64,000 bases of DNA. Source: Alloprevotella sp. (lineage in GTDB: Bacteria > Bacteroidota > Bacteroidia > Bacteroidales > Bacteroidaceae). This document shows, in pieces, positions 13,642 through 63,103 of the stretch. Both the position numbers and the translations under genes were made by a program. The notes under the pieces are model-generated. The model was not told where the DNA came from. It saw only the letters and a program-made list of their open reading frames with translations, and searched no databases. How positions within the stretch are numbered: position 1 is the stretch's first letter; each line of letters opens with the position of its first letter. The stretch is taken from the NCBI GenBank assembly GCA_017471505.1, contig JAFUTC010000007.1, positions 1-64,000 on the forward strand, read 5' to 3'.

Positions 13642-13659
13642 GCAACCCCTGGCGCCGGA

Positions 13660-13755
13660 ATTACATAATGCGACGGCAAAACGGCATTATGTAACGGAGA
13701 AACGGCATTATGCAATCTGCGAATTGTACTATACAATTTCGGAATTGCATAATGC
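13660..13755. repeat. Intergenic palindrome cluster A
   Basis: Four copies of a box close to ATTNCATAATNC occur in alternating orientation: 13660-13671, 13684-13695 (inverted), 13705-13716 (inverted) and 13744-13755. The first two form an 11-bp perfect inverted pair (TTACATAATGC / GCATTATGTAA). The last two form a 12-bp perfect pair (GCATTATGCAAT / ATTGCATAATGC) that encloses a third stem, AATTGTA / TACAATT (13722-13738). The cluster fills the gap behind the aminotransferase. Closely similar boxes occur at about 32,725, 51,000 and 63,054. Confidence 0.8.
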
Positions 13756-13821
13756 TTTTTTGTGGGGTGGGGTTTGGAAATTGGCAGATGCGTGCTACAA
13801 GAGGATTCTTGCAGTTTTTTG

Positions 13822-25190: not shown

Positions 25191-25302
25191 ATAAATTACA
25201 TAATAGCATCGTGCCTCCGTCATATTTTATATTATAAAAAATAAAATAGGTGTATTTTGCGTGGTGTAAAATATGTAGATACAATTATGGAATAATTTGG
25301 AG

Positions 25303-32674: not shown

Positions 32675-32722
32675 CGCAATCCGTTAACAATCAAGTTAAG
32701 CACAACGTATTTAATTTGCGAC

Positions 32723-32804
32723 TTATTGCATAATACCATTGAAAAATTCCATAATCCGATAGGCAAATTCAATTATGGGATTTCAAAATAGTATTATGCA
32801 ATAA
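32723..32804. repeat. Intergenic palindrome cluster B
   Basis: An outer perfect 14-bp inverted pair, TTATTGCATAATAC (32723-32736) and GTATTATGCAATAA (32791-32804), encloses an inner pair CCATAAT / ATTATGG within ATTCCATAATCC (32746-32757) and AATTATGGGATT (about 32771-32782). The boxes match those of cluster A. It occupies the 304-bp gap behind the phosphatase gene; the remainder of the gap is AT-rich and holds the promoter of the next small gene. Confidence 0.8.
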
Positions 32805-32948
32805 TTTTGCTTCATACTGCGATAAATGCTTGTAGTAATGGAATTTTCACAAATCTCTATATGAATTTCGCAGAATATAGATTATGTTTAATAGCAAATT
32901 GTTTTGCACAAAATTATCGCATTGTTTTCGTTTTCCATAAATATACCC

Positions 32949-50986: not shown

Positions 50987-50997
50987 GCATTGCCGCA

Positions 50998-51096
50998 ATT
51001 ACATAATGGCGCAAAGAAATTGGATTATGGAATTTTGAAATTCCATAATCCAATTTTCGTATGGCATAATGCAATTTTTGAGTCGCATTATGCAAT
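50998..51096. repeat. Intergenic palindrome cluster C
   Basis: The core is a perfect 19-bp inverted repeat with a 2-nt centre, AAATTGGATTATGGAATTT (51017-51035) and its complement (51038-51056). It is flanked by ATTACATAATGG (50998-51009), ATGGCATAATGC (51061-51072) and GCATTATGCAAT (51085-51096); the last two pair over 9 bp. It fills the gap between the converging pyrH and HAD genes, so a bidirectional terminator is one possible role, but there are no T runs. Confidence 0.85.
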
Positions 51097-51114
51097 CGGG
51101 ACGTTCGGACGGAC

Positions 51115-62901: not shown

Positions 62902-62925
62902 CGACTCCACTCGCCCACCCTCATG

Positions 62926-62966
62926 CAGGTCAGTTGTACGTTCGCGTTCAACTGACCTGGTTTTTT
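62926..62966 (+). terminator. serC-serA-DUF1015 terminator
   Basis: CAGGTCAGTT (62926-62935) and AACTGACCTG (62950-62959) form a 10-bp perfect stem, followed by GTTTTTT. Confidence 0.88.
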
Positions 62967-62986
62967 CTTCCCGTATGTCTCGTCCC

Positions 62987-63065
62987 GTTTCAAGCCCTGA
63001 AACGCACATTTCAAGGCTTGAAATGCGCATTCCAAGCCTTGGAATGGAATACGGCATTATGTATC
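62987..63065. repeat. Intergenic palindrome cluster D: three 17-bp palindromes at 21-bp period
   Basis: GTTTCAAGCCCTGAAAC (62987-63003), ATTTCAAGGCTTGAAAT (63008-63024) and ATTCCAAGCCTTGGAAT (63029-63045) are each palindromic, 17 bp long and separated by GCAC and GCGC. They repeat every 21 bp with changed arm sequence but kept symmetry. A copy of the box of clusters A to C, GCATTATGTATC, follows at 63054-63065. The cluster lies between two terminators of converging genes. Confidence 0.85.
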
Positions 63066-63071
63066 GAAAAA

Positions 63072-63103
63072 GCGGCACCTTGCTTTCGAAAGCAAGATGC
63101 CGC
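63072..63103 (-). terminator. rng terminator
   Basis: GCGGCACCTTGCTTT and AAAGCAAGATGCCGC pair with one mismatch around CG. On the minus strand TTTTTCG follows. Confidence 0.85.

Follow-up and report, generated by a model that had tools for sequence, protein, structure and literature searches.

Phased palindrome arrays evenly spaced along an Alloprevotella chromosome, with different motifs at shared loci in a sister species

The intergenic regions of a rumen bacterium, Alloprevotella sp., were found to contain arrays of short palindromes, typically five per array, repeated with a period of exactly 21 bp. About 90 arrays lie in 1.065 Mb, that is about one per 10 kb, on all 7 contigs examined, and they avoid one another. 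A sister species has arrays at about half of the comparable sites, often built from a different palindrome. The geometry of the arrays is firm. The between-species results rest on incomplete metagenome bins and a home-made gene caller, and what is said here of function is a proposal that stands at about even odds.

Materials and methods

The source genome (G000) is a 1.44 Mb metagenome bin of Alloprevotella sp., 77% complete. Its analyses span 1.065 of 1.441 Mb (7 of the 15 contigs, one in part). Group statistics (72 in-register groups) were taken from 791.5 kb of it. The sister species (G002) is Alloprevotella sp. RGIG5064 (record JAFVDF010000009.1), a 58% complete bin from a roe deer rumen metagenome, of which 0.760 Mb of about 1.3 Mb was analysed. 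Genes were called with a script of our own, on which the gene-placement and gap figures depend. The consensus alignment used 58 of the 72 groups, those with four to six units. The spacing analysis used groups with at least four units and left out five groups of two to three units; its set of 13 TTCAAG arrays and 77 TTGCAT arrays, the latter with at least four units each, defined 83 intervals. The sequence-blind scan required four strong odd-centred dyads in phase, at periods of 14 to 32, and missed an array found in congener G030 by pattern search.

Results

Anatomy of the arrays

In the window, the 64,000-nucleotide stretch of DNA that was analysed, the initial annotation had recognised four clusters (A to D) sharing a 12-bp box. 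All four were present where it had placed them. When at most one mismatch was allowed, the box ATTNCATAATNC had 19 matches in the window as against 4.25 expected, and no shuffled sequence reached 19. Genome-wide, 186 exact matches were counted in 1.44 Mb, compared with 3 for the reversed control. Enrichment and further members in the genome, whose absence would have spoken against the annotation, were thus both found. The box is real but it is not the whole unit: read as a profile, it makes up one half of the odd-centred palindrome AATTGCATWATGCAATT, which lies within a 21-bp repeating unit.

The centres of neighbouring palindromes were separated by exact multiples of 21 bp irrespective of the orientation of the box. 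Contig C1 and the window together yielded 129, 94, 58, 28 and 5 pairs of centres at 21, 42, 63, 84 and 105 bp, respectively, and 15 pairs at all remaining distances up to 170 bp. In the 1.065 Mb the corresponding numbers were 291, 215, 140 and 65 at 21, 42, 63 and 84 bp, with 0 to 2 pairs at the off-phase distances of 19, 20, 22, 23, 41 and 43 bp. Five units were present in 36 of the 72 in-register groups and four in 17, and groups of 3, 2, 6 and 7 units were rarer (6, 6, 5 and 2 groups, respectively). All 58 groups that have between four and six units fell into a single ungapped register, in which the inner units outscored units 1 and 5 and the central unit was among the strongest. A/T runs are located at the unit centres and between the units, hence every 10.5 bp, and G/C at positions ±3 and ±4. 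Strong polarity of the arrays was considered and rejected; the signal was weak (z 2.5), and the arrays were therefore handled as near-symmetric.

Units 1 and 5 of the five-unit TTGCAT arrays (one of the three motif families described below) had a common central base in 35 of 43 cases. The match was seen again in 10/12 cases on held-out contigs and in 4/5 sister arrays. Altogether, the same central A or T was present in both terminal units of 49 of 60 five-unit TTGCAT arrays, a regularity that units 2-4 do not show. It was missing in the other two families (8/27 and 7/13). No repeat was seen in the sequence flanking units 1 and 5, the outer flanks had no consistent inverted or direct repeat, and terminal inverted repeats outside the units were discarded as a candidate feature for lack of a consistent signal.

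Cluster A (13657..13761) is a five-unit array of the TTGCAT family with centres at 13667, 13688, 13709, 13730 and 13751. Cluster B (32722..32826) has centres at 32732, 32753, 32774 and 32795 and a weak fifth unit at 32816. Cluster C (50995..51099; centres 51005, 51026, 51047, 51068 and 51089) is a five-unit array of the TTGCAT family in a convergent gap, and the orthologous gap of the sister contains a TTCACA array together with TTGCAT-type units. Cluster D had been counted with the same family on account of one copy of the box. The copy is there, but the core of the cluster (62989..63043) consists of three TTCAAGSCTTGAA-type units (centres 62995, 63016 and 63037) and represents a second family. 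The core has an in-register CATWATG-type unit on either side: a degenerate one (CCCGTATGTC) at the left terminal position (62964..62984, centre 62974), and CGGCATTATGTAT on the right (63048..63068, centre 63058), which is the copy noticed earlier. In the sister, the orthologous gap of cluster D carries a TTCACA array. Terminator-like hairpins flank cluster D on both sides, apart from the array (62925-62965, by eye, and 63072-63103, where there is an adjoining but separate terminator call on the minus strand). Two lone box-like matches without in-phase neighbours were noticed elsewhere in the window, at 25195-25206 and 25282-25293.

Placement relative to genes

None of the 72 group midpoints fell in a predicted gene, and in the extended set a single one of 397 unit centres did so. 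The clusters had been described as lying directly behind genes. Their intergenic location was confirmed, but the orientation of the neighbouring genes varied: in the 791.5 kb, tandem gaps held 37 of the groups, convergent gaps 17 and divergent gaps 15, the other 3 being at ends of the examined sequence.

Placement bears on the reading that the arrays are RNA structures at transcript ends, i.e. terminators, 3' stabilisers or processing sites, which we consider improbable. Strong stems are indeed predicted, in agreement with the initial annotation (RNA folding z -10.0 for A, -7.1 for B, -5.3 and -7.3 for the two strands of C, -3.6 for D), and the 17 groups in convergent gaps would suit transcript ends. 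However, divergent gaps hold not only 15 of the 72 groups but also 12 of the 25 three-unit TTCACA arrays, there was no terminator call at clusters A, B and C, and the one beside D is separate from the array. The suggestion of an mRNA 3' stabiliser was weakened by the same observations. The absence of a call at A, B and C also sets these clusters apart from intrinsic terminators, in which a hairpin of 3 or more G-C pairs precedes a T run and lies behind a gene.

The convergent groups weigh likewise against the arrays being the ordinary operators of one large regulon, governed for example by an Lrp-type regulator, and mutual avoidance (see below) is not predicted by regulons either. This explanation, to which we also assign little probability, can draw on Lrp-type regulators with multi-site palindromic operators, examples of which are described in two papers (PMC2995911, PMC10201364). 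It is difficult to reconcile with the core Lrp protein, whose recognition helix is almost the same in the two species although their TTCA motifs differ.

Three motif families

A motif-free search for pairs returned three families, each consisting of a 13-bp odd palindrome with a 21-bp step. Besides the TTGCAT family (TTGCATWATGCAA), there was a TTCAAG family (TTCAAGSCTTGAA) in the source genome and a TTCACA family (TTCACANTGTGAA) in the sister. Matching TTCAAG units stood in threes in 10 clusters and in twos in 3, which gave 22 pairs spaced by 21 bp and 11 spaced by 42 bp. For TTCACA there were 25 three-unit and 2 two-unit clusters, with 52 and 25 pairs at these two distances. Phased copies of the other species' TTCA motif were found in neither species in the stretches examined. 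A degenerate CATWATG-type unit was often located one step beyond the three-unit arrays, which gives these arrays, too, about five positions. In the sequence-blind scan, the period of 21 was detected at 44 places in the source genome and at 23 in the sister, and each of the 18 other periods between 14 and 32 at one place at most.

Shared loci and switched motifs in the sister species

Between the source genome and the sister, 288 adjacent gene pairs were matched (median protein identity 78%). Among the 262 pairs with non-negative gaps in both species, 15 had an array in both, 14 only in the source genome and 2 only in the sister, and the remaining 231 had none (Fisher p 1e-14). When the larger gap was required to be at least 150 bp, the numbers were 14, 13, 2 and 49 (p 1.5e-6). 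The motif was frequently different. Seven of the 8 TTCAAG loci carry a TTCACA array in the sister, as do 8 of the 21 TTGCAT loci, two of them along with a TTGCAT array; at the remaining 13 there was none. To explain this, an ancestral array common to both species and rewritten later is a simpler assumption than insertions that hit the same places independently.

Sister gaps whose source ortholog has an array contained a strong solo unit (>17 bits) in 6 of 18 cases, compared with 13 of 136 where the source has none (p 0.011). When the gaps were limited to 80-600 bp, the figures were 6/17 and 11/90 (p 0.028). Two of the sister solo units were at closely matching places. No loss accompanied by nearby replacement was seen, nor any compensation between the species within a domain: where the source genome alone had an array, the gap was, if anything, further from sister arrays than other gaps were. 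In one region of the source genome (gaps C3:88330 and C3:91165) an intact array lies in one gap, with a two-unit remnant about 3 kb further; in the corresponding pair of gaps of the sister, the second contains a six-unit array (G002 C15:309289) and the first none.

Spacing along the chromosome

The mean interval between arrays was 10.8 kb, with a coefficient of variation (CV) of 0.54 as against 0.90-0.93 for random placement in the gaps of the same contigs. This evenness was matched by none of 2000 randomisations under each of three placement rules. No interval of the 83 was shorter than 3 kb, whereas 15-18 were expected. With the five groups of two to three units included, 2 of 88 intervals were below 3 kb (17.3 expected) and the CV was 0.57 versus 0.91. 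Avoidance extended across families: none of the 13 TTCAAG arrays was within 5 kb of a TTGCAT array, where 6.3 were expected. Arrays collected without reference to a motif were also even (CV 0.51 versus 0.92 for 73 arrays, 0.63 versus 0.93 for 54); in the strictest motif-free set (44 arrays) the evenness was not significant (CV 0.76, P 0.11). In the sister, TTCACA arrays avoid one another, the shortest interval being 8.2 kb (P 0.001). Its 14 TTGCAT arrays showed no significant avoidance of each other or of TTCACA arrays, and one pair was 84 bp apart.

The main rival to a chromosomal role is a mobile repeat with target immunity. The arrays would then be non-autonomous, MITE-like elements that start from a solo palindrome, either by inserting there or by expanding it, their units being read by a recombinase or transposase acting in trans, and immunity would create the exclusion zone. 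We hold this to be possible but rather unlikely. It accounts for the copy number and the exclusion zone, and it is consistent with high copy number in only 2 of 58 congeners, with the enrichment of strong solo units in the sister gaps orthologous to source arrays (6/18 versus 13/136) and with the common central base of units 1 and 5 in 35 of 43 five-unit TTGCAT arrays. That base match is, however, missing in the other families and no repeat flanks units 1 and 5. As regards the target-site duplications and terminal inverted repeats of MITEs, units 1 and 5 have just this central base in common. Mobility also fits less well with loci common to both species at which the motif is switched (7 of the 8 TTCAAG loci), and with avoidance that spans two motif families. 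Recent copying left little trace: identity between arrays averaged 70.4%, compared with 69.8% for shuffled columns, so that near-identical members of the kind that mark recently copied MITEs are absent and the arrays diverge in a star-like manner, without a recent burst. One point in favour of mobility is the best pair, 86.7% identical where the shuffled maximum was 80.7%; flanks were at most 54% identical. Among transposases the search was limited to Y1_Tnp/RAYT genes, which had matches in 28 of 58 congeners and none in the incomplete source (77%) and sister (58%) bins. If the arrays did prove to be mobile with target immunity, they would be elements of very small size that have shaped a chromosome through their immunity.

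Nature of the constraint on the units

The halves of an operator, read by two subunits, can vary separately, whereas the halves of a stem must change together. Within the units, the half-sites were nearly independent (overall r 0.08; -0.38 to 0.30 for individual units), and in this the arrays resemble protein operators rather than stems. Pairing within units was at or below the level of shuffles at ±3 and ±4 and above it at ±1 (z 5.7). The initial annotation had argued that pairing is kept while the arms vary, which would point to selection on structure. This mostly fails: complementarity between units, measured in 58 arrays, did not exceed shuffles except for units 4-5 (z 2.3). RNA or cruciform stems were rejected as the main constraint on the basis of this complementarity and of the pairing at ±3 and ±4.

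On the other side, rare changes in the unit core were matched by a complementary change in the adjacent unit in 6 of 45 cases (0.6 expected), in the unit two apart in 2 of 34 (0.3 expected) and three apart in 4 of 32 (0.6 expected). With 12 sister arrays added, the number for adjacent units was 12 of 67 versus 1.2. These matched changes could come from fold-back copying, a mechanism that operates at imperfect palindromes, or from weak structural selection. They favour the transcript-end reading; against it stand the near-independence of the half-sites and the kilobase-scale avoidance, which transcript ends do not predict.

A possible chromosome-organising role

We propose that the arrays are binding platforms for a putative multimeric, sequence-specific protein that organises the chromosome, and consider this proposal equally likely to be right or wrong. 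Its observed components are the palindromes with their phasing, intergenic placement and avoidance, and the shared loci at which the motif is switched. The binder, its wrapping of the DNA and its topological role are presumed. Dimers of such a protein would occupy consecutive palindromes exactly two helical turns apart, and so lie on one face of the DNA; the approximately 105 bp, in which an A/T run recurs every 10.5 bp, may be bent or wrapped around the oligomer. The resulting complexes, one in roughly 10 kb of sequence, each at a gene boundary and several kilobases from the next, would be chromosome-organising nodes that might anchor or bar supercoiled loops. The node role is suggested by the spacing, the placement and the cross-family avoidance. 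Distinct sequence families would serve one role, and a change in the recognition of the binder may have caused the motif to be rewritten in concert between the sister species. Of the options offered by the initial annotation, the target of a nucleoid protein fits best with the 21-bp phase, the nearly independent half-sites, the avoidance and the concerted motif change. Its observation was partly confirmed and its interpretation partly supported.

Several results count against the proposal. The recognition helix of the core Lrp is nearly the same in both species and Lrp was therefore rejected as the switching factor, so that the motif switch is unexplained by it. The TTGCAT pattern was detected in only 2 of the 58 congeners, which would be unusual for a core function. 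The matched core changes and strong predicted folds leave room for a stem. The lack of significant evenness in the strictest motif-free set (P 0.11) and of significant avoidance of TTCACA arrays by sister TTGCAT arrays are further points, as are lost arrays with no sign of replacement nearby. An Lrp-type gene match was present in 55 of the 58 congeners, one each in the source and the sister. In both species the core Lrp gene (G000:C5:50618-51106; G002:C15:150170-150682) is located about 3.5 kb from an array and, by sequence reading, downstream of nrdD/nrdG-like genes.

It is debated whether the supercoiled domains of bacterial chromosomes, roughly 10 kb in size, are marked by fixed sites in the DNA, and the arrays offer a candidate set of such sites with measurable geometry. 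In the concerted switching of the motif at shared loci one would have an example, rare among bacteria, of sites co-evolving with their binder, and the rewriting of the array code at the same loci may be likened to the turnover of centromere sequences. More tentatively, and with the chances leaning somewhat against it, the helically phased platforms, usually with five sites and one to each ~10-kb domain, might together be a new kind of chromosome element, a lattice across the genome whose code is rewritten between sisters, implying a rapidly evolving organising protein that co-evolves with its sites.

Comparison with known systems

The matS sites of MatP, a chromosome-organising protein, are 13-bp odd palindromes as well, but occur as single sites in one chromosomal region; the arrays differ by their phased multi-unit form and by their presence on all 7 contigs examined (of 15). 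The ends of Tn7 and Mu carry multiple binding sites at a distance of about 22 bp, and target immunity provides these elements with an exclusion zone. The arrays, in contrast, contain no element-borne gene and their motif is switched at shared loci.

The label REP-like applies only in a loose sense, that of dispersed extragenic palindromes. A REP is a short stem-loop with a GTAG or CGTC tag at one end (PMC3733652). As in REP/BIME systems with their RAYT, the palindromes are extragenic, high in copy number and present in both orientations; no conserved tag of this kind was found in the consensus of the 58 arrays and their flanks, and the exact 21-bp phase, the usual five units and the even spacing are further differences. 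A paper on DNA gyrase (PMC6379681) describes BIME-2 elements as gyrase sites that do not depend on transcription and might play a part in organising the genome. The arrays share with the gyrase motif a size of about 105-130 bp, helix-phased AT/GC and a possible organising role. As described there (PMC6379681), the gyrase motif, of about 130 bp, is degenerate with a non-periodic centre, whereas the central unit of the arrays is among the strongest and sequence-specific.

The nearest precedent is the Lrp/AsnC (feast-famine) family. Its dimers read 13-17 bp imperfect palindromes, and DNA wraps on the oligomers (PMC2995911). For BarR, 4 to 5 sites were predicted in one intergenic region, spaced by two helical turns and wrapped around an octamer (PMC10201364). 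By analogy with these systems, which the arrays match in 13-bp palindromes and several sites two turns apart, the arrays may work like Lrp multi-site operators, without Lrp itself being claimed as the binder. Lrp/AsnC operators of this type are local control regions, whereas the arrays number about 90 in 1.065 Mb, avoid one another and switch motif without a matching change in the core Lrp.

Distribution among relatives

The TTGCAT two-unit pattern was detected in 2 of 58 genomes of the genus, with 147 matches in the source genome and 6 in the sister. In 326 kb of congener G015 the units were not in excess (9 versus 9 in the reversed control). The sequence-blind scan detected no phased array in the same 326 kb, in 40 kb each of G007 and G017, or in 27 short loci (136 kb) from other congeners. 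A full-text literature search with six core sequences returned unrelated work only, and searches on intergenic palindromes, phasing and Bacteroidales or Prevotella brought up no description of such arrays.

One array of four TTCAC-type units was present in congener G030 and one phased TTCACA array in G124, which belongs to a different genus; thus the array design reaches beyond the source and sister pair. A scan for TTCACA pairs had a match in 1 of 301 genomes of the family (G124), the sample excluding the sister and G030. The triple TTCA-N5-TGAA pattern was found in 2 of 58 congeners (the sister and G030) and in 2 of 393 genomes of the order: G619, with one match, and G640, with a 21-bp tandem repeat. 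In a scan of named genomes, among the matches listed, multiple stretches occurred only on the contig of the sister species and the others look like chance. Contig C1 of G015 contains CAATTGT-type heptamer repeats with dyads at 14, 21, 28 and 35 bp, apparently another tandem repeat. In G640, from a distant family of the order, the 21-bp tandem repeats consist of TTCAC-type palindromes and are located on contigs C245 and C462.
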